Position numbers and translations under genes: made by a program
DNA from: Sedimentibacter sp. zth1
GTDB taxonomy: Bacteria; Bacillota; Clostridia; Tissierellales; Sedimentibacteraceae
Direction: 5' to 3'
Assembly: GCF_017352195.1 (NCBI RefSeq)
Contig: NZ_CP071445.1
Coordinates: forward strand, 1,736,001 to 1,800,000
DNA length: 64,000 bases
The notes under the pieces: model-generated
Databases searched by the model: none
Told to the model about the DNA's origin: nothing
Seen by the model: only the letters and a program-made list of their open reading frames with translations
Shown: piece after piece, positions 6,677 through 61,902 of the stretch
Position numbering within the stretch: the stretch's first letter is position 1
Layout: the number at the start of each line of letters is the position of its first letter

Positions 6677-6858
6677 ACTTTAAATACAATTGTCAAAGGG
6701 TTTAGTTTGTTTTTAATATTGAAATTATTTTTAACAATAGATTATGCTAGCCAATATAAAAACTAACTAAAATTAGCTTTGAAAAACAGCTTTACTAAAC
6801 TTTAAAATTAGCTCAAAAACTTATAGATTTGGTGATAACTATCCAAAAACTAGGTATT

Positions 6859-6885
6859 AAAAAAAGCACTGATAAAAATCAGTGC
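6859..6885 (-). terminator. Probable ancestral groEL terminator, now displaced
   Basis: Stem GCACTGA (6866-6872) / TCAGTGC (6879-6885); read leftward it is followed by a run of U. It sits just outside the leftmost copy of the groEL-tail sequence. In the inferred uninterrupted chromosome it would lie right behind groEL, which reads leftward. Confidence 0.7.
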
Positions 6886-6904
6886 CTTTAGTATTTAATT
6901 TCTT

Positions 6905-6927
6905 TTTATTACATCATTCCTGGCATT
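6905..6927. other. Attachment site, left end of the groEL-targeted array (attL)
   Basis: A 23-bp copy of the groEL 3' end, including TTATTACATCATTCCTGGCA. Exact copies lie at 10373-10395 and 39409-39431. Read on the minus strand it encodes the GroEL tail MPGMM and stop. The sequence left of this copy is unlike that left of the other two. The sequence to its right matches that right of the 10373 copy. Confidence 0.9.
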
Positions 6928-7055
6928 ATGTATTCGTATATCAAATGGTGTTTTATGTTAACTTATATGTTGTTATGTGCACGTAGTTTTGTATTATATG
7001 CATTATGTAGATTTAATTTATGTTATTTGCGTTAGCATTTTGTTAGCATTATATT
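6928..7055. repeat. Left-end repeat of element 1
   Basis: Closely similar (roughly nine of ten bases by eye) to 10396-10521. It ends in GTTAGCATTTTGTTAGCAT, a pair of GTTAGCA motifs like those found near the right end of element 2. These are the likely arm-type integrase binding sites. Confidence 0.75.
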
Positions 7056-7092
7056 AATATATATGTGTCGAGAATAACCGAGTTTCTATAAA

Positions 7093-7126
7093 AGAAAAAA
7101 AGATATAGAACTTCAATCTATATCTT
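7093..7126 (-). terminator. Terminator of the element 1 phosphatase transcript
   Basis: Arms AAGATATAGA (7100-7109) and TCTATATCTT (7117-7126). Read leftward the stem is followed by a U-rich run. It lies 110 bases past the phosphatase stop. Confidence 0.75.
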
Positions 7127-7236
7127 AATTTATTTAAATTATTAATAATACCAGAGTTTGTGCTTCTTTCATCAAATTCCATCAAACATTCAATAAAAAT
7201 TTTTTTAATAAATACACAGAAAGATCTCTCAGCACT

Positions 7237-7938
7237 TTACCAGTCTTCCTCATCATAAGGTAAAATTATAAAGTTTCCATTCTCTGTAACTCTATAATAT
7301 TTATCCGTTTCTGTATCTACCATAAGTATAGGAATAACACCACTCTCAAGAACAGTACCGTCGATATAGTAGTGCGATTCACCGTCATAATATATATCAT
7401 GAAACCTTGGGTCTTCTGAAATAACTTCGGTTCCAATATGGCCAGCTACGATTTTATAGTTATCATAAAATTTTCCTGTTTGGGCTGGATATTTTTCTGT
7501 AAAAGTGAAATCATCCGTTGCCCATTCCCACATATCTCCAGCTTCTTCCTCAACTCCAGCATGTACAAATATTATGTTACTCTCGTAAAAAAAATAATAC
7601 CTTGGAAGAGTCATCATCCACTGGACATACCTATCTTCTTTTGCCTCATCGATATTGTCTTCACTATGCGAAAAACGATCGGCCGCAATAGGCCATCTAC
7701 CACAACAAGCCATGTCTTCATGATTTCCCATTAGAGCCATACATTTATCCACTCCATATTTTCGCTGTAGTTCTATTATCTTGTCTAAAACTCCATAGCT
7801 ATCCGGACCACCATGAATATAATCTCCAAGTAAAATGAGTTTCGTATTATTTTCTATAAGATGTGTTTCTATCAAAGATAATGCATAATCAAATTCTGAA
7901 ATACATCCATGGATATCTGACAAACAATAAATTTTCAT
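7237..7938 (-). CDS. PPP-type serine/threonine phosphatase / metallophosphoesterase
   Basis: A calcineurin-like phosphoesterase of about 233 residues with all signature blocks: SDIHG near the start, GDYIHGGPDS, MGNHED, then His residues in FVHAG and AGHIG. These are the two-metal ligands of the PPP family, which includes the lambda-phage protein phosphatase. The start chosen is the ATG at 7938, with AAGGA just upstream; a GTG six codons earlier is less likely. It is the last of three leftward genes in element 1, after a 134-base gap. Substrate unknown; a protein or nucleotide phosphate is equally possible. Confidence 0.88.
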   Translation of the reverse strand: MKIYCLSDIHGCISEFDYALSLIETHLIENNTKLILLGDYIHGGPDSYGVLDKIIELQRKYGVDKCMALMGNHEDMACCGRWPIAADRFSHSEDNIDEAKEDRYVQWMMTLPRYYFFYESNIIFVHAGVEEEAGDMWEWATDDFTFTEKYPAQTGKFYDNYKIVAGHIGTEVISEDPRFHDIYYDGESHYYIDGTVLESGVIPILMVDTETDKYYRVTENGNFIILPYDEEDW

Positions 7939-8089
7939 TAAATCCTTAACCCCCACTTTAAATAATAATAACGGTTTATATATATCATTTTTATATATTT
8001 TCGCATTAATTAATAATATCTATCAATATACCATATTCTCTCTTACATCAATAAATAAAATTTCTATTACTATATAATAAAACTGATAA

Positions 8090-8548
8090 TTATTCATTAA
8101 TAATTCTTGCTCTTGCCAACCTTTTTGCTCTATTATCGATTATTTCAATTGCATTACATAAAAAATTATGGATACTACCCATAGCAAGTATTTTTTCTGT
8201 ATCAGTTAAATTTTTCAATTTCTTTTGAGTATATGGTAGCTTTACATTTTTTAATGGAGAAAGCTGAACAAAGTTTTTCCAACCAACTTCTCCAATGCCA
8301 AAAGAATCAAAATAAGCAGGATTATTTCCCATATTAAACTTTTCGTTAGTAGCACCTGAATTCAAAAAATAATTTCTTATAGCCTCAAAAAAAACATCTG
8401 GAAATTCATGATATGTATAATTTTTAACGTATTGTAAATATGGGTTTACTTTCATTCCTTCATAATCTTTCCTAGGTTTTATGATTGGCATAAAATTTGC
8501 GAAAGTGTGATATTTTTTGTAAAAGAGTTCAAATTCTTCATTGCTCAC
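8090..8548 (-). CDS. Hypothetical protein of element 1
   Basis: 152 residues, no family recognised. It is soluble and rich in aromatic residues, with YHTFANFMP near the start, a central FDSFGIGEVGW and a helical basic C-terminus ending RAKRLARARI. It starts 18 bases after the stop of the EEP-fold nuclease gene in the same direction. The two are surely co-transcribed and may act together, the small protein perhaps as a regulator or inhibitor; this is only inference. Confidence 0.75.
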   Translation of the reverse strand: MSNEEFELFYKKYHTFANFMPIIKPRKDYEGMKVNPYLQYVKNYTYHEFPDVFFEAIRNYFLNSGATNEKFNMGNNPAYFDSFGIGEVGWKNFVQLSPLKNVKLPYTQKKLKNLTDTEKILAMGSIHNFLCNAIEIIDNRAKRLARARIINE

Positions 8549-8566
8549 AATTTACACATCCCATTT

Positions 8567-9850
8567 TTAACCGTTATTTTTTAATAATATTTTTGCAATA
8601 AGCACTGCGTGATCTGGATATCCTTTTGCAATTTCCCAGTTTTTCTTGTTAGGGTTTTTTACAAAAAATTCCTTTCCTTTGTAAAATCTTAAAAAGTCCC
8701 ATTTGTATTCTATATCTTTTGTAAAATAATTACTTAGCAAATGGTCATATTTGTTTATGAAATATTCATTTTTTTCAGGTTCCTCTGCTTCACATTCGGT
8801 GCACTTTGCTCCAATCGATGATAAATTTCCTGTAGCTGTATATAATGAAATTTTTTGTCCACTTTCTTTATATACAAAGTTCCTGATTTTTTGAAAATTA
8901 TGCTCAATAGAATCCTTATCTTTATATATTTCTTCAATCGTTTTCTCGTTTTCAACTTCATTACCAAGAATTCGTGAATTGTTAAAATCGCCGACAACAA
9001 TCACATTATCAATTGTTTTTATGTATCTAGTCAGTTGCTTATACTGCTCAAATCTTTGTGATTGTTCAAGCAATCTTTCCTGCCTATTTGACGAGTTCGA
9101 TTTTTTACAATCGATTCTAATTCTTGTTCCAATTACCGAAATTTCTTCTGATTTTATTTTTATTTTTATTTCATAAAAATCTGGAAAATCTTTCCCTGTG
9201 TCAGGATTTTTGATTTCATTTTCCATTTTTACAAGTTCAATACCACATTCTTTTTTTACTCCGATGCATATACCATTTTGATGAGGATAATAAGAACTTT
9301 CAAACACAAAATATCTTTTCTCTAGTATATTCTTTAGATCACACCAACCAATTGATTTAACAAATTCTGTTAGTACAAAGATATGGGGATTTTTATCGAA
9401 AATCTCATTTGCAATTAAATTTACTGGAATTATATAATTATGTGAACCCGTTCTTGCATTTATATTCCATTCAAATATGGTTAATGAATCTTCCGTTGTA
9501 ATTGTTTTACGTAAGTTATTAGCTACAAGCTCAAGAATTACATCAATAACTTGCGATATATACAATCTTTTGCCACAACTATCTTGTAGCATATTCTGTA
9601 TATCGAGAATTTTATCATAGATTTCCTGCCTTAAACTAACTGATGTGGATTTTGCTTCAATACCCTTCTTATCAGAAAACAGTTTTTTAATTACATTATC
9701 CCATTCAACTTTTGAAATATTAGATGAATTTTCTACAGCTAATCCAACTATATAACCCGATGTAATCTTATCATTTTTATCGAAAAAGTGCTTTTTGATA
9801 ACTCCAATATTCTTTTTCGCTTCTTCCTTCATTCTTACTTTGAGAATCAT
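8567..9850 (-). CDS. RHH-like domain fused to an endonuclease/exonuclease/phosphatase domain
   Basis: 427 residues. The C-terminal 300 residues carry the EEP (DNase I/exonuclease III-like) blocks: FEWNINAR, the catalytic Glu in VLTEF, GDFNN, KYDHLL and the terminal Asp-His pair in GYPDHAV. The N-terminal 115 residues are not EEP. Residues 70-112 (VSLRQEIYDKI, YISQVIDVILE) look like a ribbon-helix-helix DNA-binding segment. The ATG at 9850 has GGAGG seven bases ahead. A consensus promoter and a palindrome lie just upstream, so self-repression through the N-terminal domain is plausible. Role could be DNA or RNA cleavage, or phospholipid/phosphate hydrolysis. Confidence 0.82.
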   Translation of the reverse strand: MILKVRMKEEAKKNIGVIKKHFFDKNDKITSGYIVGLAVENSSNISKVEWDNVIKKLFSDKKGIEAKSTSVSLRQEIYDKILDIQNMLQDSCGKRLYISQVIDVILELVANNLRKTITTEDSLTIFEWNINARTGSHNYIIPVNLIANEIFDKNPHIFVLTEFVKSIGWCDLKNILEKRYFVFESSYYPHQNGICIGVKKECGIELVKMENEIKNPDTGKDFPDFYEIKIKIKSEEISVIGTRIRIDCKKSNSSNRQERLLEQSQRFEQYKQLTRYIKTIDNVIVVGDFNNSRILGNEVENEKTIEEIYKDKDSIEHNFQKIRNFVYKESGQKISLYTATGNLSSIGAKCTECEAEEPEKNEYFINKYDHLLSNYFTKDIEYKWDFLRFYKGKEFFVKNPNKKNWEIAKGYPDHAVLIAKILLKNNG

Positions 9851-9862
9851 CTCATTGCCTCC

Positions 9863-9879
9863 GTAGTATTTTTAACTAC
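9863..9879. promoter_or_regulatory. Possible operator of the EEP-nuclease operon
   Basis: Palindrome GTAGT-N7-ACTAC placed between the -10 box and the ribosome site. Its position would block transcription if bound. The RHH-like N-terminus of the downstream protein is a candidate binder; this is inference. Confidence 0.4.
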
Positions 9880-9883
9880 ACTT

Positions 9884-9912
9884 AGTATATGTTTGCTACG
9901 CTATTTTGTCAA
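9884..9912 (-). promoter_or_regulatory. Sigma-A promoter of the EEP-nuclease operon
   Basis: On the minus strand TTGACA, a 17-base spacer and TATACT: near-perfect -35 and -10 boxes. It drives 9850 leftward. Confidence 0.8.
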
Positions 9913-9930
9913 TAGTTAATTTGCAATCCA

Positions 9931-9967
9931 TAAAAAAAGTGAGCGACAAAGACTTCTCCTTGCCGCT
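9931..9967 (-). terminator. Terminator after the tnpV remnant
   Basis: On the minus strand AGCGGCAAGG pairs with CTTTGTCGCT (two G-U pairs), followed by a run of seven U. Confidence 0.75.
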
Positions 9968-9974
9968 TCTTGTA

Positions 9975-10259
9975 TTAATTATAGATTAAATTGGTACTCA
10001 CGGCCTCCATAGCGACGTTGCGGATGGTGTTCATTTTACCTACACACGCCATTTGCCCGATTGTCATTAACTGATTATACTGTTTGATATATCGCAGGTG
10101 TCTCTGTAACCATACGCCCACTGGATTCTGTTTTTCATCAGGTAGTGTTATACAAGGCAGATAATATTCACCTTGTTTTTCGTACCAAAGACCGTTCTTT
10201 TCATCGTAAATGTACTTTTCTTTATAAGTTTCTCCAGATAGAGATTTTTTCCACAACAA
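9975..10259 (-). pseudogene. Decayed tnpV-like transposon gene
   Basis: The 94-codon reading matches TnpV, a small accessory protein of Tn4451-type and similar clostridial transposons: NGLWYEKQGEYYLPCITL, VGVWLQRHLRYIK and the C-terminal VGKMNTIRN...NLIYN. The middle of the family (about 40 residues between RHLRYLK and the MNNIRN block) is missing. The start would be a TTG with no ribosome site. I read it as an internally deleted, 5'-truncated remnant. It is the rightmost gene of element 1. Confidence 0.75.
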
Positions 10260-10340
10260 ACATCCTATGCAATCAATGCACTGTATACATTATTTATTGA
10301 TTTCATATCAACTTTTGTTAGCATCTTAAAAATTCGCATT

Positions 10341-10367
10341 AAAAAACCGCTGAATTTCAGCGGTTTT
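10341..10367 (-). terminator. Element 1 right-end terminator
   Basis: Stem CCGCTGA (10347-10353) / TCAGCGG (10357-10363) with A/T runs on both sides. It closely resembles the hairpin in the same place before the 39409 site. When the element sits next to groEL this hairpin would terminate groEL mRNA. Confidence 0.75.
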
Positions 10368-10372
10368 AATCT

Positions 10373-10395
10373 TTTATTACATCATTCCTGGCATT
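10373..10395. other. Attachment site between elements 1 and 2
   Basis: Second exact 23-bp copy of the groEL tail. Left of it lies a right-end terminator like that of element 2; right of it lies a left-end repeat like that of element 1. This is what two successive integrations at one site would leave. Confidence 0.9.
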
Positions 10396-10521
10396 ATGTA
10401 TTTGTATGTCAAGTGGTGTTTTATGTTAACTTATATGTTGTTATGTGTAGATAGTTTTGTATTGTTTGCATTATGTGAATTTAATTTATGTTATTTGCGT
10501 TAGCATTTTGTTAACATGCTT
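10396..10521. repeat. Left-end repeat of element 2
   Basis: Matches the element 1 left end over about 125 bp and ends in GTTAGCATTTTGTTAACAT, one GTTAGCA motif plus a variant. Short frames here are AT-rich and not convincing genes. Confidence 0.75.
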
Positions 10522-10687
10522 GTATATTAGTTTATTAAATATCCCTGTCTATAATTTTACATATTTTATAAAATTATTCTCAATACTATTTAATATATTC
10601 AAGCATACATTCTTTAACATTTGTGTTTTTTGGATATTTTATAAAATCTCCTTCATTATATTAACAAAGGTATTTTCAACAAAAAAT

Positions 10688-10940: not shown

Positions 10941-11630
10941 TTAGGTATTATTGCTACTTGCATATTTTAATGCTTCTTTTAGAGTTAAAGATATTTCCAT
11001 ATCTGTTGCCATGAAAGGATGTCTTATTTGAAAAAACATATTATTACTTGAAAGTGAATGGGACTGAATATATTCTTTTTTAAAATTAACAATATAATCA
11101 GAAACTATTTTACTAATAGGTTGTATATTATATGTCAAATAGTAATTTGTGTCTGGCATATCTTCAATACTATAAAATACAGGATATTGTATTTTATTTT
11201 CATCATCTTGCTTACAAGGCTTATCGCTAATAAAAGCTGATTTAATAGATCCCCATTTTTTATCACTTCTAATAAGCAAAATATGAACGCAATGATTTTT
11301 AGGAATTTTTAATGTAATTATAGACTCAGGTATTTCATCATTATTTTCCCTTAATTCTGTTTCCATGATCATAATACTTTCTAAACAACGATTGGAATTA
11401 TAATTATAAAAATTTGGGATTGACTTTTGAAATACTATTTTTCCTTTATTCTTAATATGCATAACACCATCAATATTTTGTTGATTTGGGGTATGCAAAG
11501 AAAGATGGTGGTTATTATTTTTTTTATCATAATCTATATAACAAGCACCACTTGGTTGGATTTTTAATATTCTAACCAGTGAAATAAATCCTTGATCATT
11601 TTTAACGCAAAAAGATATAGTTTTATTCAT
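10941..11630 (-). CDS. Hypothetical protein
   Basis: 229 residues, intact, with a good ribosome site (AAAGGAG before the ATG). No signal peptide or membrane segment. Composition suggests a beta-rich soluble protein with a helical C-terminus (SLTLKEALKYA). I recognise no family. It stands alone near the left end of element 2, a place where cargo genes commonly sit, so a defence or accessory role is possible but not supported by sequence. Confidence 0.7.
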   Translation of the reverse strand: MNKTISFCVKNDQGFISLVRILKIQPSGACYIDYDKKNNNHHLSLHTPNQQNIDGVMHIKNKGKIVFQKSIPNFYNYNSNRCLESIMIMETELRENNDEIPESIITLKIPKNHCVHILLIRSDKKWGSIKSAFISDKPCKQDDENKIQYPVFYSIEDMPDTNYYLTYNIQPISKIVSDYIVNFKKEYIQSHSLSSNNMFFQIRHPFMATDMEISLTLKEALKYASSNNT

Positions 11631-11640
11631 AAAAACTCCT

Positions 11641-12028
11641 TTCTCATGGTTGTGTATTGTGATATAAGGTATCTATTGATAGCAAGCACAAAACCACCCA
11701 AAGATACACTCTGAACATTTAGCATAGTTGTATTATACTATATTCAACACAAAGCCTTCCATTAATTAATTCCATCACTAATTAACAATTTCTGCAATCT
11801 GCCAAACTCTATCCAAATAGTCTATAAAATCAAATAATCCAACCCCTCACCAATCGGTGTAAAATTCGGATTATTCCTCTTTGATGAACCTGAGAGGAAT
11901 CGAACCCACGGTACATGCCATTGAGGTCATGTGTTTTATATGGTATCACCGTTTCTTTTTTTGTTATATTTTTCAAAGATGTCGTTTGTCACCTTATTTA
12001 ACACGATATATTAAAAAACATTTAACAA
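11641..12028. other. Interval of decayed sequence, no intact gene
   Basis: Holds an inverted repeat AATAATCC (11833-11840) / GGATTATT (11868-11875) around a small CACC/GGTG hairpin. Next to it, 11894-11911 read leftward resembles a tRNA T-loop (GGGTTCGATTCC) without a matching 5' half. Frames read leftward over 11785-11870 give short peptide pieces with stops. Probably the scar of older insertions. Confidence 0.4.
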
Positions 12029-12382
12029 TTACAGGAAATAGTCAATAGTTATAAGTAACACAAATGTCACTAAACCTCCTAACGAAAAGTATAAACCTCT
12101 TTTGTAGGTTTTGAATTTTAAATCGCATATCTTAGCACATATATAAATTTGTGACAAAATATCATTGATGTAATCATCTTCACTTGTATTATTTATTTTT
12201 TCTAAATATTTGTCATAACTTGAATTAGTTGCTATAGAAGAAAAGCAAATGATAGATTCGGAACATATTTTCTGGCTATTATCCAATTCTTTCATATTAG
12301 TTTTAGGAATAAGAGTACGGACGAGGTTATATCCACCATAAAGCGAAGCACCTACCGATATAGCAATTAACAATAAAAACAA
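12029..12382 (-). pseudogene. Truncated two-helix membrane protein (possible DUF5706/Pycsar-effector-like)
   Basis: The reading has a hydrophobic helix at its start (FLLLIAISVGASLYGGY), a soluble helical middle and a second helix at the end (LGGLVTFVLLITI). The pattern DILSQIYICAKICDLKFKTYKRG before the last helix resembles the 2-3TM effectors of cyclic-nucleotide defence systems. The only available start is a TTG without ribosome site, and the open frame extends about 15 codons upstream to a stop. The N-terminus, probably one more helix, is missing. No cyclase gene is nearby. A remnant; the family call is tentative. Confidence 0.45.
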
Positions 12383-12467
12383 AATATTCCCGCAAGAAGG
12401 AGTATTAATTTTCTTTGCAAATCTCTATTCTATTATATTTAAAATAAGCTTAAAAATCAAATTTATT

Positions 12468-12707
12468 TTACAACTTACACAACTTACAATGTCCATTCAA
12501 AATGTGCCCTAATTCATGAAGTATAATAAAACGAGTAACAAATATTCCTAGTAATTTAGCTTTCGCATCATCTATTATTTTACTATCAAAAATTTCTATT
12601 TTTCCTTTTTTAAAAAAGGCTCTTTCATACGATATTTTTTTGAGTTCATCTTCTTCATTTTCGAAGTTAAATGCCTGAAGCATAGCATTCTTATCTTGCT
12701 CCATCAC
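12468..12707 (-). pseudogene. Fragment of an HExxH metallopeptidase
   Basis: About 80-100 codons remain. The end reads ILHELGHILNGHC, a zinc-peptidase HExxH motif with a following His, as in peptidase U49/Lit-type or IrrE-like proteins. A stop follows ten residues after the motif, so the rest of the domain including the third zinc ligand is lost, and the frame upstream opens at a stop without a start codon. Lit-type peptidases act in phage exclusion by cutting EF-Tu; that this was one is a guess. Confidence 0.5.
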
Positions 12708-12771
12708 TTTTGTAAAATAGTCATAATATAATTCTATTACCCCACTAGTATATATAATCTTGTACCTTTAA

Positions 12772-13887
12772 CTATTTAAGTTTATTTGATATAATATTTA
12801 TCTGTTCAAACATTTGCATCTTAGATTTGTCTCCTCCATAATAATAGTATTTCTTTAAATAGTAATCAATTTCTAACCATTTATGTGTCATAATTACTTC
12901 AAAAGCCTTGTCTGCTTTTTTAACATTCATATTTTTCTTTATGTCTATGATTAATCCTGAAACCAAAATTCCAAAAGTATATGGAAGTAAGAGTAAGTAA
13001 ACTAAATTTGATAAATTAGTTTTACTAAAATTTTTATAATAGTCGTAAATACTCATATCAATTGTATCATTAGGCATATTCTCTAATAACATTTTACCTT
13101 TTTCGTGTGCAAATTGCACTATAGAATCAGTAGCTATATTTATAACAAAAAACATTACAATACTACACAGTGTAAATATAATTATTGCAGTTTTAAATGC
13201 ATATATTAACTTATTATACTGATAATATGGTGTACCAAAAATTAGTACAATATATAATATAATACTTATCGAAGCAGTAACGGAAGTTATTAGAGGCATT
13301 TTTTCAAATATGAATCCCCACATAACAATACTATCTATTTGAGATTTATCAAATAAATTAGGTATATTTACACAATTTCCATGAACAAAAACTGATAACA
13401 TTATAACTACAAATATAATTAATCCTAAGAAAATAAGCAATCCTTGCATAGTTGACATTAGAACGCACAATACCTTCAAAGTAATTAAATTTTTTTGTAT
13501 AGAGAAATAGACAGATACAAAATATATACTTGCATAACAAACAACTATCCAAATTAAGCTATTACCATAATATTTCATAAAAACTTCGTCCATAGATATA
13601 CATAAAATTACATTTACTACTATAGCAACACAATCACTAAATTGATAACTTCTCATTTTTCTATCATTTGTTTGCTTTTCATCATCCAAAGAATAAAATT
13701 CTAGCATTTTAATTTTTTTGTGTCTATTAATTAGTCTATATCCAAAAATAATACATGACATAATAACTGATATAATATAGAAAATTTTACTTTTAATAAA
13801 TACAAAAAAAATAGTTGATAGAAAAAATAAAATATAAAATAATTTAATGCTATTTGTATAAAATATTTTATCAATTACTTTTTTCAT
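12772..13887 (-). CDS. Polytopic membrane protein of unknown function
   Basis: 371 residues, with about eight hydrophobic segments: two near the N-terminus (residues 14-50), several between 85 and 265 and one near 300-315. The last 55 residues are cytoplasmic, charged and aromatic (KKYYYYGGDKSK). A strong ribosome site (AAGGAGG) precedes the ATG. I know no family for it. It lies upstream of and co-directional with the metallopeptidase fragment, so it may be the surviving part of a two- or three-gene cargo unit. Confidence 0.7.
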   Translation of the reverse strand: MKKVIDKIFYTNSIKLFYILFFLSTIFFVFIKSKIFYIISVIMSCIIFGYRLINRHKKIKMLEFYSLDDEKQTNDRKMRSYQFSDCVAIVVNVILCISMDEVFMKYYGNSLIWIVVCYASIYFVSVYFSIQKNLITLKVLCVLMSTMQGLLIFLGLIIFVVIMLSVFVHGNCVNIPNLFDKSQIDSIVMWGFIFEKMPLITSVTASISIILYIVLIFGTPYYQYNKLIYAFKTAIIIFTLCSIVMFFVINIATDSIVQFAHEKGKMLLENMPNDTIDMSIYDYYKNFSKTNLSNLVYLLLLPYTFGILVSGLIIDIKKNMNVKKADKAFEVIMTHKWLEIDYYLKKYYYYGGDKSKMQMFEQINIISNKLK

Positions 13888-14473
13888 GATTGTTCCTCCT
13901 TAGGCTTATCTAATAGTAAGTATATTAGTGGTAATTAATGTCCATTACTTTAATCAATAAAGATATAACCAAATTAAAGTTATTTATATATCTTTTACCA
14001 TATTTGGACAGCTGTTAATATAATTGCTCTTTTGAGAGTGGTATGTTGTCGCTCAATGCGTTTATTCATAAATCAAACGTTACTGTAGTTTACTGTTATG
14101 GAACAAGCAATCATAGAATCATTATTCCATACAGCTTTAATATCTTTTGTATGATAAAATTGATTGATAACGGTAAGCTTTTGTATGTTTATAATGTAAG
14201 AACAAAACTAATTATGCCTACATTCGATAAACAAAAAAATGTATAAAAGAATTATTAAGAGATATTGCTGTATTATCAAGAAACAGTTTCAAACTTAATT
14301 GTCTCTCTTTACTTGCCATCTACATTTTGTCAGAATTTATATGACACTTCAAACCTGTCCCAAAGTACTTTTAATAAGTATAATCAACAAAATATATTAT
14401 TTGCTTTATATATAATGGTTTTTTTGTGTTAGCATTTTGTTACATACAAATAATTTATATTGAAATAGTTTTT
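13888..14473. other. Non-coding interval with a stray integrase-arm motif
   Basis: A 67-codon rightward frame (14043-14246) lacks a ribosome site and family features, so I do not call it. At 14428-14443 the sequence TGTTAGCATTTTGTTA repeats the left-end arm motif of the two elements. This may mark the end of an older insertion. Confidence 0.4.
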
Positions 14474-16528
14474 TTACACTTCTGTTTGAACTTGTCCAAA
14501 AATATGTTCAATTTCATCTTTAATATTTGATATTTCATCTAAGTATAAAATGCTCAAGTTTTTGACAGCCCTAGTGGTTGCAACATAAAGTAAATTTCTT
14601 GCTTTTTCTATTTTACTTCCTTCACCTGACTCTGAAACCTCAAAATAACTTTTAAATAATTTGCTAAAATACTCATTGTCTCTATTAAATTGATTTTTCA
14701 TTATTATAATAACATTATCAAATTCTAATCCTTTAGTTCCATGATATGTATGGTAAATAACCTTATCTTTTCTCTTTGATATAATATAATTATACCACAA
14801 GTCAAATTCATCAATATTCAAATTTAAAAATTCTTCAACTTTCTTCCTGTCTTTTTTAACACCATCATCATTATCTTCGTCTGTTTGAAACAACTTTGTA
14901 AATATTGTCTCTTCAATTTTTTTATACGAGTTATTCTCTTTGCCTATATAGTAATCTATACATATATCATAATTTTTATCTCCCTGATTATATAATTTAA
15001 ATATATTATAGATATATTCTTTTAATGATTCTCCACTAATTTTTTTAAATTTATTAATCAACTCTCTTAGCAATTCAATATTTAAAACTTTGCATACATC
15101 TAAATAAATAATTTCATAAACCATTGTTCTATCATCATTTATTTTGTTTCTAAAGTCTATAATTTTAAAAATTAAATTCTGAACAACTCCTAATTTTTTA
15201 GTATCTGTACTTAAGAGTTCTTGACTTAAATTTTTATAATTTATTCCCGTTCTATAATAGTTAGATAATTCAAAAAAATTATAAATATTTTCAAAGCCAC
15301 TTTCTTTGGCTACTACTTTATTAGTTAGAACAAAACAATGCAATTGATTTTCCTGTGTAATATTCCACTTTTCAATATGTTTATTTATAAACTCTTCTAC
15401 TGTAATATTAGTATTTGCATAAAAATTGACACTTCCTCCAGTAAAATTATCATATATCGATTCTTGTATTAAACCATCATTTCGAACTTTATTAGCAACT
15501 TCTATTATTTCATTCATTGACCTTCGGTTATACTTCTTTTGTATTTCGCATAGATTTTTATTTATTACTGTAAATTTATCTCCAACTCCTGTATTATAAA
15601 TATTTTGTTTTAAATCACCATAATATCCTATAAATACTCTATGATTAATTGTTTTAGAAAAATCATCTAATAAACTAAGTGTTGTCACAACTTTATAATC
15701 AGTGTCTTGATATTCGTCTACTAATATAAATGGGTATTTATCACAAATAATATGTTTTAACAAATTATTTTGATTTACAAGATTATATGTATATTCTAAT
15801 AAAGTATCATGGCTTATACACATCTTATCCAATCTATCAAAGTTGTAACGTGCATCATATTTAATTTCATTTAATTTTTTATCATCAATTTTAGTTACAG
15901 TTTCTTTATACCTTTTAATTCTAAACAAACAATCAACTACTTTTTTGAAATGTTTTTTATTATCTAAAATACCGTCAAATTCTTGCATTATAGATTTAAA
16001 GTTCTCTTCTATAACATCTGCTAATTCATTTTTACATTTGTAATATAAATCTTTTTTGTCAACCATTACATCAAGAAACTTTAATCTCTTTTCTTCATTT
16101 AATTTTTTATATTTTTCAGCCCACTTCTCTGTTTGCAATGCATTTTTTTTAAAATTAATTTCCTGGTTAAGTTTTTCTTTATGAATTTGAACAAGCTGTT
16201 TTTGATATGGCTTAATGATATCCCAAACTATTACGTGTATCGTTGAAACATCTACTAAACTTGTATTTCCAAGTCTTCCTTTAATTTCATTAGTCGCTAC
16301 ATTTGTATATGTAATACATAAAATTTTTTGATTATGTGCCTCAAGCTCTTTGTTATTTTTTTCTATAATATATTTTAATGTTTTTATTAACGTGTATGTC
16401 TTGCCTGCACCTGCTCCTGCATCAAATACAATGCTTTGTCTTTTATCTACACAGTCAAAAATATCTATCACTATATTATCTTCTTTTTCTTTTTTATCTT
16501 GTGATATTGATAAATTATTATAATTCAC
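14474..16528 (-). CDS. UvrD/PcrA-like helicase, GajB-like partner of a class 2 OLD nuclease
   Basis: 684 residues of a superfamily 1 helicase. Motif I is AGAGAGKTYT (residues 37-46), motif Ia region CITYTN, motif II VDEYQDTD, motif III/IV region YNRRSMNEI, motif V YHGTKGLEFDNV and motif VI LLYVATTRA. It begins at the base after the stop of an OLD-family nuclease gene. In Gabija, GajA (OLD nuclease) and GajB (UvrD-like) form one complex that cuts phage DNA when nucleotides fall. This protein is longer than the first described GajB (about 490 residues), so it may be a related subtype rather than canonical Gabija. Confidence 0.83.
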   Translation of the reverse strand: MNYNNLSISQDKKEKEDNIVIDIFDCVDKRQSIVFDAGAGAGKTYTLIKTLKYIIEKNNKELEAHNQKILCITYTNVATNEIKGRLGNTSLVDVSTIHVIVWDIIKPYQKQLVQIHKEKLNQEINFKKNALQTEKWAEKYKKLNEEKRLKFLDVMVDKKDLYYKCKNELADVIEENFKSIMQEFDGILDNKKHFKKVVDCLFRIKRYKETVTKIDDKKLNEIKYDARYNFDRLDKMCISHDTLLEYTYNLVNQNNLLKHIICDKYPFILVDEYQDTDYKVVTTLSLLDDFSKTINHRVFIGYYGDLKQNIYNTGVGDKFTVINKNLCEIQKKYNRRSMNEIIEVANKVRNDGLIQESIYDNFTGGSVNFYANTNITVEEFINKHIEKWNITQENQLHCFVLTNKVVAKESGFENIYNFFELSNYYRTGINYKNLSQELLSTDTKKLGVVQNLIFKIIDFRNKINDDRTMVYEIIYLDVCKVLNIELLRELINKFKKISGESLKEYIYNIFKLYNQGDKNYDICIDYYIGKENNSYKKIEETIFTKLFQTDEDNDDGVKKDRKKVEEFLNLNIDEFDLWYNYIISKRKDKVIYHTYHGTKGLEFDNVIIIMKNQFNRDNEYFSKLFKSYFEVSESGEGSKIEKARNLLYVATTRAVKNLSILYLDEISNIKDEIEHIFGQVQTEV

Positions 16529-18601
16529 CTATTTACCCCCTAACCTATTTTCAAGAAATTTAAACCCATCTACTATATATTTAGGTAATTTAGGAATATT
16601 TTCATTGCTTTCGCACGTTAAAATATTATATAGTAAGCTATTAGCAAACCTGCTTTTTGAATTAGATAGCTTTACTTGCAATTTATATGAATTATTAATT
16701 AGTCCACCATTTTTTATAATATTCTTATATATGTCAGGTTTAATATCTTTTAAAACATTATTTAATATTTTATTATCACTATTTGTTAAAATAAAAGCTT
16801 CCTCAAAACTGGTTGAATAATATCCCTTTATACGATTTTTTTGAAATATTATTTTTAAATTATTTAGTTCTATATACCCACTTTTAACAATATCACATAA
16901 TTTTTCTTTATCATAAAAAAATTTTATAGTTTCATTAGTTGTTATCCTACTACATAATGTATTAATTTGTTTATAAACTTCTGGAAAACCTTCTTCACCT
17001 TTTTCTTTTTTACTACGCTTAATATCTATATCTGTAATAATTAGCGATGGTACATTTAATATATCAATTAATTTTGCATATACCTTTGCATGTGCACCAT
17101 CTATCAAGAAAGCAGAAATATAATATTGATTTAATTTAGAATTTTCATCAATGTAATATTGTAATAATGTATATTCGGTTATTCCTTCTACAAAAATAAC
17201 AGCATCTGAAAAAAATAGTTCTGATACCTTATATTTTATGTGCTTTTTCAAAAAGTTTAATTCATACTTTGTTATCTTTTCTTCATCTTCAGATTTAAAA
17301 TCTATATCTATAATTTTATCATCATTTAGGCTTACTGACTTTGCTATACCATCAACTGTAGTAATGTAATTTATATTATTGAATGTATTTCCTGAGTGTA
17401 TTTTACTGTTTAAAATATGTGATGAATGAGTAGTTATAATTATTTGACTATTTACATGTTTATTTTTGCTTTCTAATAGGGCTGATATCATATCATCAAT
17501 GTATTTAATAAATTGTTCCTGCATTTGAGGATGCATAAACGTTTCTGGTTCTTCAATTGATATTAAATTTACCTTGCTATTAAAAGATGATTCTGGATAT
17601 TTTTCCATATAAGTAATTATGTCAGCAACTATCATCATTAAATGTGTATAACCTAATCCAAATTGCTGTTCTGGAATATTATTGTTACCTTCTACATACT
17701 CATACTTTATAACACTTTGAATTAGCTTTTGAAATGTTAAATCCGACTTTAACAATACCTTGCATTTTTCACTTAAAATAACTTTACTTAAAGATTTGTT
17801 AATGTCATCACTATGATTCTTTTTTATATCCTTAGATAACTTATTGTTAATTTTTAAAATTTCATCATCTAATTTATCCACAATTTTTTCATCAATAATT
17901 ATATTATATCTATATTCAATAATTTTTTGAAATGCTTTTGATAAGCAATTATTATTTTTAATATTAATAGCTTTTATGGGTGTTAATTCTATTAATTTAT
18001 TTAAACTAAAGATATTTCTTTTTTCATTAGCTGAATTGTAGTATACGGTTTGAAATTCTGTCTTATTTATTAAATACAAAAATCTATCGAATTCCTGGCT
18101 TTTATAATCTTTGGCTAAAAATTTTTCTAAATCTTTTATATATATTTCACTATCTTTTACTTCATACTTTACAATAATTTCTACTTCTGATTTTTTTACA
18201 TCTTCTAATGACATAAACGGAATAATGTTTGTTACTAAGTCTTCATTGTTGTTATCTATTCCAATTATTATTACAAATTTTAAATATGGACATGAAATAG
18301 CGTCAATCTCTTTAAAATCATGTTTTTTATATTTTTCTAACAAATTCTTGAGATAATTAAAATTAAAATCTTCTGCTTTAAATTTAGTTTCATTTATAAG
18401 TTTGTTTAAAGCTTCAGTAACAGTTGTTTTACCGCTATTATTCTTTCCAACTATAAGAGTAGTTTTTTGTGCGATATTAACTTTATTATTTACAGCTGTG
18501 CTTTTTTTATAGTCCTCTGCATCAATAAACTCAATAGTATTATCTTTATCTATTTCTCCAAATTTTCTAAAATTAATAATAGATAAGCTCTTTAAATACA
18601 T
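16529..18601 (-). CDS. OLD-family ATP-dependent nuclease, GajA-like
   Basis: About 690 residues. The N-terminal ABC-type ATPase has Walker A GKNNSGKTT (about residues 52-60) and a Walker B/signature region in ISIEEPETFMHPQ. The C-terminal TOPRIM domain shows IFVEGITEY and the acidic ITDIDIK, the metal ligands for DNA cleavage. Adjacent co-directional UvrD-like helicase makes this a class 2 OLD protein, the Gabija arrangement. The ATG at 18601 has GGAGG before it; a reading nine codons longer has no such site. Part of the element 2 defence cargo. Confidence 0.86.
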   Translation of the reverse strand: MYLKSLSIINFRKFGEIDKDNTIEFIDAEDYKKSTAVNNKVNIAQKTTLIVGKNNSGKTTVTEALNKLINETKFKAEDFNFNYLKNLLEKYKKHDFKEIDAISCPYLKFVIIIGIDNNNEDLVTNIIPFMSLEDVKKSEVEIIVKYEVKDSEIYIKDLEKFLAKDYKSQEFDRFLYLINKTEFQTVYYNSANEKRNIFSLNKLIELTPIKAINIKNNNCLSKAFQKIIEYRYNIIIDEKIVDKLDDEILKINNKLSKDIKKNHSDDINKSLSKVILSEKCKVLLKSDLTFQKLIQSVIKYEYVEGNNNIPEQQFGLGYTHLMMIVADIITYMEKYPESSFNSKVNLISIEEPETFMHPQMQEQFIKYIDDMISALLESKNKHVNSQIIITTHSSHILNSKIHSGNTFNNINYITTVDGIAKSVSLNDDKIIDIDFKSEDEEKITKYELNFLKKHIKYKVSELFFSDAVIFVEGITEYTLLQYYIDENSKLNQYYISAFLIDGAHAKVYAKLIDILNVPSLIITDIDIKRSKKEKGEEGFPEVYKQINTLCSRITTNETIKFFYDKEKLCDIVKSGYIELNNLKIIFQKNRIKGYYSTSFEEAFILTNSDNKILNNVLKDIKPDIYKNIIKNGGLINNSYKLQVKLSNSKSRFANSLLYNILTCESNENIPKLPKYIVDGFKFLENRLGGK

Positions 18602-18771
18602 AGTTTTCCTCCAAAATAACAATTCCAATAATTTTTTGATATTATATTACATATTATACCATTTATTTTCCATTTTACAAGGAATAAAGGTAAATAAATG
18701 TATTTTTAATTTAGTATAGCTTAATTAATAATTTAACGTTAGAAAAATTATATTTTAAAAACAATATACAA

Positions 18772-26484: not shown

Positions 26485-26565
26485 CTATTGTTAAATTATA
26501 GAAAATATTGTAAAATAATTTTAACAATACTTTTAATAATCAATTTTATATTTATGGAGGATGAA

Positions 26566-27753
26566 ATGTTTTTTAAAAAACAAAATTATGTAAAAGTTTA
26601 TTCTTCGCCTAACTCAAATGAACAATTCGGTCTAATAGCAATTAATGGTAAAATCAAAGATGCATTACTAACAAAATTTAATGAAACATATCAATCTCAG
26701 GGAAGTTACTTTAATAATGGTGGAAAAGCATCCGATAAATGCATGCGTTCCATTTTAGCAACTGGAACAGGAGCATTAGGTTTATCGTCTGCAGCATCAG
26801 GCACACTTTTTATGGCTACTGTTAATCCTGCTACATTAATGACTTTAAGAAATGGTGTTGGTAGTGCTGTTATGGGTTCAGGTGGTATTGTAGCACAAGC
26901 CCCTTTTATTCCTATTTCGGGTGCTTTAATGCCTGTTGCAGCACCTTTACTTGCTTATCAAGCTGTTTCAACCATAACGATTATGCAACAATTTGAAACG
27001 ATTAATGAAAAATTAGCTAATATAGAAAAAACACTAAACAGAATATTACATAGATCCGAAGCAACTTATATAGGAGAAATAATATCTTCTAGTGCTCGTT
27101 TAAATTCAATTGAAACAGAATACTCACTAACAAATTATTTTTCTCAAGATATGATAATAAGATTAACCTTTATTGAAAATACAATAAATACAGTTTTTGA
27201 AAGATATAAATTTTTATATGAATCACTAGGTATTAATTCTAATCTTTTATCTGAAGATATAGATATTATGCAAACAGATGCAATAATGGTAACTATATTA
27301 TCTATATTAGATCTTAGAATAGATACTTTAAGAATTAAAATTTCTCTACAAGAAAATCCTGGTTTTATGAAAATATTAACTGAACAACTAATTGAAAAAA
27401 TTGAACGTTATAAAATATTATGGAGCAATATTGAGCAAAGTCCTAAAAAAATACAAGAAATTACACAATCAATGTCTCAAACCATAAATAACTTAAATTG
27501 GTGGAAAAAACAGATGCCAGGATGGATTGGTGGCAATAGAAAACTTAGAAAAGAAAGTGAAAAAAATATTTTTGAAATTAATCAAAAGAATATGTACTCT
27601 AATACTGAAGAAATAATTAATGGTGCTAAAGAAGCTATAAATATTGGTAATAATTTATTAGACCAGGCACAACAAAAACAACAAATGCTTTTATATTGGG
27701 AAGATTTAAACGGAGTTCACTCTTACTATACAAATGAAATATCAATAAGTTAA
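26566..27753 (+). CDS. Hypothetical protein with hydrophobic Gly/Ala hairpin and helical C-terminus
   Basis: 395 residues. Residues 1-55 are soluble. Residues 60-140 are hydrophobic and rich in Gly, Ala and Ser (ATGTGALGLSSAASGTLF, GSAVMGSGGIVAQ, ALMPVAAPLLAYQ). This looks like a membrane-inserting hairpin. The rest is long amphipathic helix and coiled coil. This layout recalls alpha-helical pore-formers, but I know no homologous family. The start has GGAGG five bases before the ATG; a longer TTG reading has none. No terminator separates it from the amidoligase genes 82 bases upstream, and one follows at 27850. It may be the effector, or the protein modified, in that operon. Confidence 0.75.
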   Translation: MFFKKQNYVKVYSSPNSNEQFGLIAINGKIKDALLTKFNETYQSQGSYFNNGGKASDKCMRSILATGTGALGLSSAASGTLFMATVNPATLMTLRNGVGSAVMGSGGIVAQAPFIPISGALMPVAAPLLAYQAVSTITIMQQFETINEKLANIEKTLNRILHRSEATYIGEIISSSARLNSIETEYSLTNYFSQDMIIRLTFIENTINTVFERYKFLYESLGINSNLLSEDIDIMQTDAIMVTILSILDLRIDTLRIKISLQENPGFMKILTEQLIEKIERYKILWSNIEQSPKKIQEITQSMSQTINNLNWWKKQMPGWIGGNRKLRKESEKNIFEINQKNMYSNTEEIINGAKEAINIGNNLLDQAQQKQQMLLYWEDLNGVHSYYTNEISIS

Positions 27754-37871: not shown

Positions 37872-39041
37872 ATGAATGGTCATATATATAAAAGAGGCTC
37901 TACCTACACCTATGTCATTGATTTAGGAAGGGATCCTATAACAAACAAAAGAAATCAAAAATCTAAGGGTGGATTCAAAACTAAAAAAGAGGCTAACGCT
38001 GCACTATCTCATATATTAGCAAGCTACAATGAAGGTACTTATATAAATGAAACTGATATGACACTTGCTGAGTTTTCTGACAAATGGATAAAATTATACT
38101 CCAAGACAGGTAATGTCAAAATAAGTACTGTTAGAGTAAGACAACATGAGATTAACAACGTTAAAGCTTACTTTAAAGAAGCAAAAATGAAAGATATTAC
38201 AAGCTTAATGTATCAAGATTTTCTGTTATATTTATTATCTAATTTTGCACATAATACTTTAACTGGTATACATAGAACTGCTAAAATGATATTTAAAAAA
38301 GCAATAGAAATGAGATTAATCTTAAATGATCCAACTCAATATGCTAAAGTTCCAAAGAAAGTAAAAACAGTAGAAGAACTTGAGCATGAAACTGAAATAC
38401 CTAAATATTTTGAGAAAGAAGAACTTAATGAGTTTTTAGAGCTTTCTAAGCAAGATATTAGCCCTCAAACCTATGTAATATTTCTAACACTCGCATATAC
38501 TGGAATACGTATCGGTGAACTATGTGCCTTAAAATGGAAGGACATTGACTTTACAAGCAAAGAGATAAGTATATATAAGACTTATTATAATCCTGTAAAT
38601 AACACTATAAATTATACGCTATTACCACCTAAAACAAAAACATCTAAGCGCAAAATACAAGTTGATGATATAGTTATTGAAGCTCTAAGAAAGCATAAAT
38701 TACGTCAAAACGAGCTCAGACTTCGTATCACATCATGGCATAAGGAGAATTTTGTATTTACTAAGTTTATCAATTATCCTGGATATCCAGAGACACCAAA
38801 GCAAATAGAAATTGTAATGGATAGAATTATTAAGAAAAACGGACTGAAGAAATTAACTCCACATGGATTAAGGCACACACATGTGTCACTCTTAGCTGAG
38901 GCTGGTGTTGGGTTAAAAGAAATAATGGAACGTTTAGGTCATAAGGATGACGAAACAACTACTTCTATATACATGCATGTAACTAAGGCAATGAAGACAG
39001 AAGCAAGTACTAAATTCAGTAAATTAATGAATTCAGTATAA
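37872..39041 (+). CDS. int: Tyrosine integrase of the groEL-targeted element
   Basis: 389 residues, Tn916/phage type. An N-terminal AP2-like arm-binding domain (residues 1-55, GGFKTKKEANAAL), a SAM-like core-binding domain (60-160) and the catalytic domain. Catalytic residues: Arg213 in TGIRIGEL, the HGLRH box (His331, Arg334), His357 in RLGHKD and the nucleophile Tyr367 in YMHV. It lies 370 bases from groEL's 3' end and reads toward it. With the 23-bp core at both element ends it is the enzyme that targets groEL. RBS AAAGGAT. Confidence 0.94.
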   Translation: MNGHIYKRGSTYTYVIDLGRDPITNKRNQKSKGGFKTKKEANAALSHILASYNEGTYINETDMTLAEFSDKWIKLYSKTGNVKISTVRVRQHEINNVKAYFKEAKMKDITSLMYQDFLLYLLSNFAHNTLTGIHRTAKMIFKKAIEMRLILNDPTQYAKVPKKVKTVEELEHETEIPKYFEKEELNEFLELSKQDISPQTYVIFLTLAYTGIRIGELCALKWKDIDFTSKEISIYKTYYNPVNNTINYTLLPPKTKTSKRKIQVDDIVIEALRKHKLRQNELRLRITSWHKENFVFTKFINYPGYPETPKQIEIVMDRIIKKNGLKKLTPHGLRHTHVSLLAEAGVGLKEIMERLGHKDDETTTSIYMHVTKAMKTEASTKFSKLMNSV

Positions 39042-39043
39042 AA

Positions 39044-39360
39044 TGTTAGCAAGTTGTTAGCAATATAAAGGCTATAATTCATCAATTCATGAACACGTTT
39101 ATTTTAACGTGTTCTTTATTTTTTCGAATTATACTTGAAAATATTTTTAAAGTCTTGAACATATTGAATTATCTATTGTACATTGATTTTTGTTAGCAAA
39201 ATTATATCTATGCAACAAATATAAAACAATTAATTTAATACAATCAAAACAAATAAATAATTTTCAATACTCTCATCAACATTTAATGCTAACAATGCAT
39301 TGTTAGCAAATCAATGCAAATAATATAAATTTTTATGAAATGTTAGCAAATTGTTAGCAA
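39044..39360. repeat. Cluster of GTTAGCA repeats, probable integrase arm sites
   Basis: TGTTAGCAA or close copies at 39044, 39054, 39190, 39301, 39341 and 39352, some as pairs ten or eleven bases apart, with GCTAACA on the other strand near 39289. The same motif pair ends the left-end repeats of both elements. This is the expected layout of arm-type sites at both element ends. Confidence 0.7.
39091..39125 (+). terminator. Terminator of the integrase gene
   Basis: GAACACGTT (39091-39099) pairs with AACGTGTTC (39106-39114), followed by a T-rich stretch; 50 bases after the int stop codon. Confidence 0.85.
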
Positions 39361-39380
39361 ATGAAAATTTCCACAAAAAA

Positions 39381-39401
39381 AAGCGCTGAATTTCAGCGCT
39401 T
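39381..39401 (-). terminator. Current groEL terminator, supplied by element 2
   Basis: AAGCGCTGA/TCAGCGCTT stem with a three-base loop. Read leftward it is followed by a U run and lies 12 bases past the groEL stop. It belongs to the element side of the core, so integration swaps groEL's terminator for this one. Confidence 0.85.
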
Positions 39402-39408
39402 TTTATCC

Positions 39409-41041
<1,633 letters not shown>

Positions 41042-49452: not shown

Positions 49453-49469
49453 TAACATCACAAAGCTAT

Positions 49470-49556
49470 ATGTTTTGGCTCCCTACGACAGTATTAACTG
49501 ACAGGTTCTAAGGGTCAGGTTTTATCCTTCTCAACTAAATTAGTTCCCCTGCAAAT
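49470..49556 (-). promoter_or_regulatory. TPP riboswitch (THI element) of thiC-thiW
   Basis: Read leftward: CAGGGGAAC, then TTGAGAAGGATAAAACCTGACCC..., GAACCTG, TTAATACTG and GTAGGGAGCC. These are the conserved blocks of the thiamine pyrophosphate aptamer. Confidence 0.93.
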
Positions 49557-49626
49557 CTTTATTTTATTTTTACAAGTTCATTGTATCTCATAAGTCAAAC
49601 ATTGTCAATTGATTACAGCATCTATT

Positions 49627-52996: not shown

Positions 52997-53044
52997 TCAT
53001 TAACATTTATTATCCTGATATTAGCTAATTTAGCTTGTTATACA

Positions 53045-53092
53045 AATGAGGGTATTAAAAGCTATTAAAGCAATAGTTTTTAACACCCTCAT
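53045..53092. repeat. Long hairpin between module 2 immunity gene and module 1
   Basis: AATGAGGGTATTAAAAGCTATT pairs imperfectly with AATAGTTTTTAACACCCTCATT over about 20 bp. It may end the module 2 transcript; on the plus side it is followed by a T-rich run. Confidence 0.55.
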
Positions 53093-53157
53093 TCTTTTTA
53101 TTTAGTTAAGAATTTCTCTGTCCCAACTGAAACATAATTAACTTAATAAATAAATTT

Positions 53158-53706
53158 TTATTGAATTTTCATTTCTAAATAGCTAATCATATTTTGTATA
53201 CTCATTTCAAGTTTTTCTTTAGATAAATAATCTGGCAACTTTCCATCTTCTTTGTAATCGTCTGAAACAATAATAGGCTTATTAGATATTTCTTTCAATA
53301 CTTTTATCATCTCGTTTTGTATATCTATTTTCTTATATAAATTTAAACTTAGAGATTTTAACGTATCAAGAATAGCATTAATAATTCTTAAAATAGTATT
53401 TGTATCCAGAAACTTCTTTTTCTGAATTAATTGATCTATCATAAATTGTATAGCTTCATTTTCTTTCATACTAACAGAAATATCCCCGTATCTTTCTATA
53501 TTTTCAGCAAGTAATTTATTATTTAATGCCTCGTTTATTTTTCTTGCTAAACTCAGTTGCATTTCCTTAAGCCATTCGTATTCCAATAATTTCGAAACAT
53601 TTAAAGTTTTATAAAATTCATATTCTCCTTCACGAATCATATGAAAATGGCTACCACCATATTTAATAAAAATTTCTTTAGCTACTACAAAATCCTTATT
53701 ATACAA
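53158..53706 (-). CDS. Presumptive immunity protein of RHS module 2
   Basis: 182 residues, almost all helical and Lys/Glu/Ile-rich, no membrane segment, no family recognised. TTG start with AAGGAG nine bases before it. It begins 16 bases behind the toxin stop of module 2. A cytoplasmic helical binder of the toxin domain is the likely role. Confidence 0.68.
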   Translation of the reverse strand: MYNKDFVVAKEIFIKYGGSHFHMIREGEYEFYKTLNVSKLLEYEWLKEMQLSLARKINEALNNKLLAENIERYGDISVSMKENEAIQFMIDQLIQKKKFLDTNTILRIINAILDTLKSLSLNLYKKIDIQNEMIKVLKEISNKPIIVSDDYKEDGKLPDYLSKEKLEMSIQNMISYLEMKIQ

Positions 53707-53722
53707 TTTAAATTTCTCCTTT

Positions 53723-57928: not shown

Positions 57929-57994
57929 ATAAAAGGTACGTCCCTAAATGTGATACAGCCCCTTAGAGAAAATCCCAAGGCGACTGTGACTGTG

Positions 57995-61122: not shown

Positions 61123-61147
61123 AATCTAGCATTCAATAAAAAATAAA

Positions 61148-61194
61148 GACGTAAATATTTTGCCAAAATTATTTATTCAGCATAAATTTACGTC
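61148..61194. repeat. Palindromic element at the 5' end of RHS module 3
   Basis: GACGTAAAT (61148-61156) and ATTTACGTC (61186-61194) with a TTATTCAGCATAAA centre. Same family and same place relative to rhs homology as the element at 57861-57913. Confidence 0.65.
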
Positions 61195-61377
61195 CTCATT
61201 TAAGTACAAATTTATATATAATTTTTCTTTTATTAGGTATATAAGAAATTATTTACAGGACCATTATATAATGTTGGTTCACAGTCTACTATCCCAAGTA
61301 TATACAGTAGTTATAAATTTATGTAGTTGTACAGTCCCACCATTTTCTTTGCATTTCATAATCTTACTAATTTGTAT

Positions 61378-61848: not shown

Positions 61849-61902
61849 TTATAAAAAACTCTCCTATTTAATTATTATTAATATTTTTAGCATTTTTTCT
61901 TT

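Follow-up and report, generated by a model that had tools for sequence, protein, structure and literature searches.

An integrase-less element at the 3' end of groEL

The window analysed here comprises 64,000 nt of Sedimentibacter sp. zth1 (GTDB lineage Bacteria; Bacillota; Clostridia; Tissierellales; Sedimentibacteraceae; assembly GCF_017352195.1, contig NZ_CP071445.1, positions 1,736,001–1,800,000 of the forward strand); all coordinates are window positions. The segment of interest, 6905–10395, contains a small integrated unit (element 1, 6908–10375), which lies in tandem with an island of approximately 29 kb (element 2, 10376–39412) at the 3' end of an intact groEL gene. Element 1 is 3468 bp long and is bounded by direct repeats of the 18 bp that end groEL. 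These read TTACATCATTCCTGGCAT on the plus strand and occurred three times in the window, here called attachment (att) copies 1 to 3 (Table 1). The 19-mer ATTACATCATTCCTGGCAT was found at 6908, 10376 and 39412, against a mean of 0.02 occurrences in shuffled sequence (n = 100, up to three mismatches allowed). Between its ends, element 1 has four main open reading frames (ORFs): genes for an EEP-domain protein, a 152-aa protein and a PPP-family phosphatase, together termed the cargo, and a TnpV-like remnant.

The two elements have related ends. When the 146-bp left end was compared with relatives, 6 of 61 genomes were matched, but long copies occurred only in the source genome (at 6904 and 10372); matches elsewhere were 21–36 bp long and several of them were the groEL end. 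The right ends of element 1 (10260–10375) and element 2 (39042–39411) aligned with a score of 47.5, none of 300 mononucleotide shuffles scoring above 31. When the 18 bp were added, the score was 75.5 between the elements, against 40.0 for element 1 with the chromosomal flank and 44.5 for element 2 with that flank. At each right end, the groEL end is seen in the sequence with a hairpin just behind it, that of element 1 occupying the place which the hairpin downstream of groEL has in element 2; a further hairpin is present in the chromosomal flank, beyond att copy 1. The motif TGTTAGCA, presumed to represent integrase arm sites, was found in exact form 16 times in the window on either strand, seven of these at the right end of element 2 (one reversed) and one at each end of element 1. 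The left end of element 1 contains two GTTAGCA motifs, of which one is the full TGTTAGCA at 7041.

Pfam identified no integrase among the four main ORFs of element 1, and Pfam and PHROGs no transfer gene (ORFs of at least 60 aa; three or four shorter, overlapping ORFs were unscanned). This build is established by the att copies, the repeated left end and the right-end score, and upholds the claim of an earlier note on this DNA that both ends are present and the integrase absent. The three genes described in that note were all recovered, and a TnpV remnant is present in addition.

Table 1. Features of element 1 and its surroundings (window coordinates)
Feature	Position	Strand	Basis
Element 1, integrase-less att-flanked unit, CIME-like	6908–10375	.	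Repeat spacing 3468, att copies, ORF scan
Left end of element 1	6904–7049	+	92% identity over 146 bp to 10372–10517 (element 2 left end)
Att copy 1 (last 18 bp of groEL)	6909–6926	+	18-bp identity
A+T-rich hairpin (10 pairs), then T5	7095–7126	-	60-nt fold, -11.6 kcal/mol
PPP-family (Metallophos) phosphatase, 233 aa from ATG at 7938	7237–7938	-	PF00149 E 2.2e-15; phrog_246 E 1.1e-22
Orphan 152-aa protein	8090–8548	-	No family, no relative
427-aa protein (P0003): N-terminal ~122 aa and C-terminal EEP domain (residues 123–427)	8567–9850	-	Profile, homology, alignment
GTAGT-7-ACTAC inverted repeat, between -10 box and ribosome-binding site	9863–9879	-	Sequence reading
Promoter TTGACA-17-TATACT	9912–9884	-	11/12 match to consensus
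Terminator-like hairpin, between cargo promoter and TnpV remnant	9942–9967	-	G+C-based terminator scan
TnpV-like remnant, 94 aa	9975–10259	-	PF14198 E 2.3e-14, best stretch profile 1–40 of 111
Right end of element 1: one TGTTAGCA (10316) and terminator-like hairpin (10343–10367)	10316–10367	+	Motif count, hairpin scan
Att copy 2, element 1/element 2 junction	10377–10394	+	18-bp identity
Tyrosine integrase of element 2	37872–39041	+	PF00589 E 1.2e-27; 66% homologue beside groEL in G180
Att copy 3, 3' end of intact groEL	39413–39430	+	18-bp identity
groEL, intact	39413–41041	-	Gene reading of window

The cargo operon

The cargo runs on the minus strand from the promoter through the EEP gene, a spacer of 18 bp, the 152-aa gene, a spacer of about 130–150 bp (according to the PPP start chosen) and the PPP gene to the A+T-rich hairpin. 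Shuffling the 150 bp upstream gave a promoter site with at least 11 of 12 consensus positions in 2 of 500 trials, and a shuffled 3.5-kb strand contained 0.16 such sites on average; promoter-like sites over the whole region numbered 31, which is the level expected by chance (27.1, s.d. 4.6). The earlier description of three open genes sharing one strand and a consensus promoter was supported. The inverted repeat behind the promoter is a possible, weak candidate for an operator. A G+C-based scan placed five terminator-like sites in 6700–10600 (shuffle mean 1.0), two of them inside the PPP gene and none between the 152-aa gene and PPP; the A+T-rich hairpin, which is outside the list from that scan, is likely to be the terminator of the operon.

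The full trio was not encountered elsewhere, there being no relative of the 152-aa protein in the searched data, an outcome that the earlier note had named as one that would refute its reading; but the EEP and PPP pair did recur. In a genome of another genus (G174), relatives of the two are separated by 2.4 kb, and that genome was matched once by each under the search thresholds used; recurrence of two of the three genes was found nowhere else.

The EEP protein and its relatives

P0003 fell below the Pfam cut-off for PF03372 (E = 0.047, 13.9 of 24.5 bits; E = 0.02 for the EEP domain alone), and its EEP assignment holds through relatives only. These relatives, at L002 (a Mammaliicoccus sciuri plasmid), L009 (a phage-labelled scaffold), L029 (in G174) and L036, all scored above the cut-off, and those at L002, L029 and L036 aligned to P0003 with E values of 2e-19 to 7e-13 when a small set of loci was searched. 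Using tblastn, P0003 matched one of 72,556 plasmid records (M. sciuri, 26.5%, E = 5e-12) and none of 50,697 phage records; the M. sciuri protein as query led to one phage-labelled faecal scaffold, L009 (E = 1e-8). P0003 alone recovered only itself in 249 and in 398 genomes, but these negatives are weak because the 249-genome search missed G174, which was met through PPP and confirmed by alignment A2. Searches with alignments matched 2 of 398 (A1), 3 of 239 (A2) and 4 of 157 genomes (A4), the source genome included. Six other genomes were matched in this way, of which G174 and G751 were kept as family members, while G303, G049, G697 (E = 1.6e-6) and G763 were set aside by eye as encoding other EEP enzymes. 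The enzyme in G697 (L034, 22–2277) lies directly downstream of a serine-recombinase-like ORF, as judged by eye. Eight scans of viral contigs and two of genome contigs, for which exact peptide words were needed, gave no relative; in most of them some word matches failed confirmation.

The family has five members: P0003 and those of the M. sciuri plasmid, the phage-labelled scaffold, G174 and G751. Invariant in all five were W6-N-I-N, E40, D166-x-N168, D247 and P290-D-H-A; N7, E40, D166-x-N168, D247 and D291-H292 are presumably the EEP catalytic residues, and on this alignment the catalytic motifs of P0003 are intact. In these motifs, and through its four relatives, P0003 resembles the EEP phosphodiesterases; it differs in its own sub-threshold score, in the extra N-terminal segment and in the small number of relatives found. 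The settings of the relatives were a mobilizable plasmid, a phage-labelled faecal scaffold, a contig with a relaxase and a large serine recombinase (G174) and, for the fourth, a region that is phage-like by eye. At L029 (2715–16000) the EEP gene adjoins an FtsH-like gene, the relaxase and recombinase being 9–12 kb further on.

The N-terminal segment of approximately 122 aa is absent from all four relatives. By eye it contains two strand-helix-helix units, which resembles DndE and TraY, described in PMC10853773 as tandem ribbon-helix-helix (RHH) proteins built of such units. Unlike these, the segment is without an RHH profile match (no RHH family in Pfam at E up to 10, and only weak PHROGs matches to families of unknown function), and it is fused to an EEP domain. 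Its two halves align with a score reached by 220 of 1000 shuffles. Neither part of P0003 matched PADLOC at E = 1. The earlier note had read the protein as an RHH/EEP fusion; the EEP part stands by virtue of the relatives, while the RHH part is without profile support, and the segment is possibly DNA-binding. No title on an RHH-EEP protein appeared among the papers listed in literature searches (10 of 112 and 12 of 183). EEP domains, predicted to be inactive, do occur in the YprA helicases of ARMADA type II defence, according to PMC12458937. Two weak PADLOC matches of Mammaliicoccus proteins, the EEP (E = 0.0031) and the product of the gene behind it (E = 0.0015), were not counted. An AlphaFold single-sequence model of the 427-aa protein was unusable (mean pLDDT 31.1), as was that of the 152-aa protein (mean pLDDT 43.8).

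The 152-aa protein and the PPP phosphatase

The 152-aa gene has coding-like composition (GC1>GC2>GC3), but its product matched no family in profile searches of Pfam, NCBIfam, PHROGs and PADLOC, and searches of phages, plasmids, viral contigs and genome contigs yielded no relative. At E = 0.01, 3 of 348 genomes were matched, namely the source genome and two others whose matches were judged to be due to chance: one contained two internal stops, and the other was antisense to an ABC-transporter-like ORF. The antisense match came up again, at E = 5.5e-4, when the small set of loci was searched. Small genes also stand directly behind the EEP gene in L002 and L029; when the 152-aa protein was compared with four small proteins near other EEPs, the scores were reached by 816, 1492, 263 and 217 of 2000 shuffles.

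For the phosphatase, a start at 7938 is more probable than one at 7956, judging by eye from the ribosome-binding site. It combines a Metallophos match with the motifs D-x-H, GD, GNHE, H and GH, which we take to be the PPP metal ligands. Its closest PHROGs family, phrog_246, is NinI-like; it resembles these phage phosphatases in profile match and metal-binding motifs, but reads GDYIHGG at the motif GD-x-x-DRG. Curated NCBIfam matches were below cut-off, with an Ap4A hydrolase first (2.6e-13) and a Pnkp model at 7.4e-5, and the solved structures matched were a Rhizobiales-like phosphatase and ApaH. At 1e-10, 3 of 80 relatives were matched, the source genome included and G174 being one of the other two; it is not, then, a conserved chromosomal gene, which the earlier note had named as a further finding that would refute its reading. 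No EEP relative was present at the other PPP loci examined (L005/L030, L010 and L011).

Element 2 and its integrase

The tyrosine integrase of element 2 is presumed to act on the att copies. In a search at 1e-80 it matched 2 of 61 genomes, its own included. In the other, G180, the integrase gene lies directly beside groEL, and the last 18 bp of that groEL are repeated exactly approximately 36 kb away; the genes between the repeats are phage-like by eye, the nearer third having been read. This integrase family is thus seen to choose the groEL end in two genomes. Among the papers listed in a literature search, whose titles concern mostly mycobacteriophages and their integrases, no report of an integrase site at the groEL 3' end was noticed.

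PADLOC identified Gabija in element 2 (GajA, 16529–18628; GajB, 14474–16528), together with a type IIG restriction enzyme and a methyltransferase. Element 2 also encodes a resolvase-like protein (182 aa) and a short relaxase-domain protein. Its left part (10941–14246) contains ORFs of 229, 117, 79 and 371 aa; three were compared with Pfam, where the 229- and 371-aa products had no family and the 79-aa product gave a weak M48 peptidase match below cut-off. A 421-aa ORF with hydrophobic stretches (26488–27753, by eye) lies upstream of a small resolvase-like gene.

Element 1 as a probable cis-mobilizable element

The layout of element 1 is well explained by a known kind, the cis-mobilizable element (CIME), in tandem accretion with an integrase-bearing relative. 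PMC5704250, which has Pavlovic 2004 and Bellanger 2011 in its reference list, describes CIMEs as elements that have lost their integration and transfer genes but keep attL and attR; a later element may insert at the attR that holds the end of the target gene, giving an accretion of a CIME and an integrative and mobilizable element. Each CIME feature that can be tested on sequence was found in element 1: att flanks made of the target-gene end, no integration or transfer genes among the four main ORFs, and ends related to those of element 2, the integrase-bearing relative with which it stands in tandem at a target-gene 3' end. It departs from the described cases in its target, the groEL 3' end.

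Element 1 is best explained as what remains of an island that inserted into the groEL 3' end by means of a tyrosine integrase, and that subsequently lost its integrase and transfer genes while retaining its att ends and, as content, one cargo operon. Element 2, being related and equipped with an integrase, would then have inserted at the att copy adjoining groEL, creating the tandem. A recent deletion of element 2 is an improbable origin for element 1, because their left ends differ by 8%. The element 2 integrase could excise and move the whole tandem, and such joint movement seems more probable than that element 1 is excised by itself, because the right end of element 1 has one exact TGTTAGCA, compared with seven at that of element 2. 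The earlier picture of an integrase-less element beside a relative with an integrase is supported by the att copies, the similar ends and the integrase; its corollary, mobilization in trans, appears less likely than joint movement, given the one arm-like motif against seven. In its small size and clear layout, the locus exemplifies a passive island that is kept at the end of groEL next to one carrying Gabija.

Possible functions of the cargo

It is proposed that element 1 is a CIME kept with a cargo that forms an EEP-centred conflict module, a proposal given an even chance of being correct. The core would be an EEP-fold phosphodiesterase of a rare family on mobile-looking DNA, preceded by a segment that may bind DNA and followed in the operon by the orphan partner and the PPP phosphatase. 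The enzyme may attack or process nucleic acid, whether that of invaders or ends left by host defence, and may be held in check by its own N-terminal part, the 152-aa partner, or both. The cargo most likely serves conflict between genomes because EEP members occur on mobile-looking DNA, their partners change, and the neighbouring element carries defence genes. Defence, end repair and addiction would all be compatible with such a role, and defence is plausible. A doubtful extension makes the 427-aa protein a new DNA-targeted (tandem RHH-like) EEP nuclease which, with its fast-evolving partner, forms an undescribed anti-invader or addiction unit, the WNIN-type EEP being the constant core of mobile conflict modules with exchangeable partners.

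Several observations weigh against the proposed conflict module. The anti-phage role raised in the earlier note found no support from PADLOC, which matched none of the three cargo proteins at E = 0.1. Partner genes differ by locus, each queried EEP partner matching its own locus only, and no PPP relative was present in the examined flanks of the other three EEP loci. L009 is linked to the family via L002 only, and was not matched by P0003 itself. The right end of element 1 keeps a single exact arm-like motif, and its excision and transfer are putative. Finally, the PDB entries that the EEP profile matched best were sphingomyelin phosphodiesterases (E = 1.5e-5), and an exodeoxyribonuclease followed at 0.026; the substrate, which we infer to be nucleic acid, need not therefore be so, and confidence in the proposal was lowered slightly.

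The cargo might instead be an assembly of unrelated passengers, the EEP and 152-aa genes as one unit and PPP as another, without joint function in a decaying island that also holds the TnpV scrap. The 133-bp gap before PPP and its different base composition (GC 35% versus 28–29%) favour this, as do the PPP loci without an EEP relative and the failure to find the trio elsewhere; conversely, the continuity of the operon between the 152-aa gene and PPP, where no terminator-like site was seen, and the pairing in G174 are not expected of passengers, and this explanation was considered somewhat improbable. Repair or trimming of nucleic-acid ends, as counter-defence or salvage, would also be compatible with a CIME, the EEP and PPP enzymes acting on ends of RNA or DNA that nucleases of the host or of rivals have damaged. 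Phage kinase-phosphatases work on nucleic-acid termini. At L009 the EEP gene is directly behind a HAD_SAK_2 phosphatase of the Swiss Army Knife RNA repair family (E = 5.7e-19), and L029 groups the EEP with a P-loop-like protein (weak matches), a metallophosphoesterase and a PPP that matches an RNA-ligase phrog (1.4e-8); the HAD_SAK_2 gene and the phosphatases at L029 lend some weight to end processing, as does the weak Pnkp match of the PPP in the window. SAK-HAD phosphatases are placed in jumbo-phage RNA repair by PMC7824862. Yet each of these links comes from a single locus, the main ORFs of element 1 include no ligase, kinase or HAD gene, the better curated matches of its PPP are Ap4A hydrolases, its structural matches are those given above, and the EEP profile prefers a sphingomyelinase, so that end repair appears unlikely.

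An addiction system resembling toxin-antitoxin (TA) pairs, in which an EEP toxin restrained by its N-terminal segment, the 152-aa partner or both retains the integrase-less element, has in its favour the 18-bp gap, the strong promoter, the possible operator and the small genes directly behind EEP in L002 and L029. The latter encode proteins dissimilar to the 152-aa protein, EEP is to our knowledge not a toxin family of TA systems, and PPP is left unexplained; addiction was accordingly judged quite unlikely. Should the EEP operon prove to be a unit of defence or addiction, its proteins would lie outside what the PADLOC models used here detect, and such a role would explain why element 1, lacking an integrase, retains just this cargo.

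Other features of the window

Two features outside the elements were also noted. A TPP riboswitch on the minus strand (49463–49560) lies upstream of an ORF that is ThiC-like by eye. At 50306–63861, as read by eye, several long ORFs share YD-repeat (RHS-like) stretches while their C-terminal ends differ, as in polymorphic toxin arrays.

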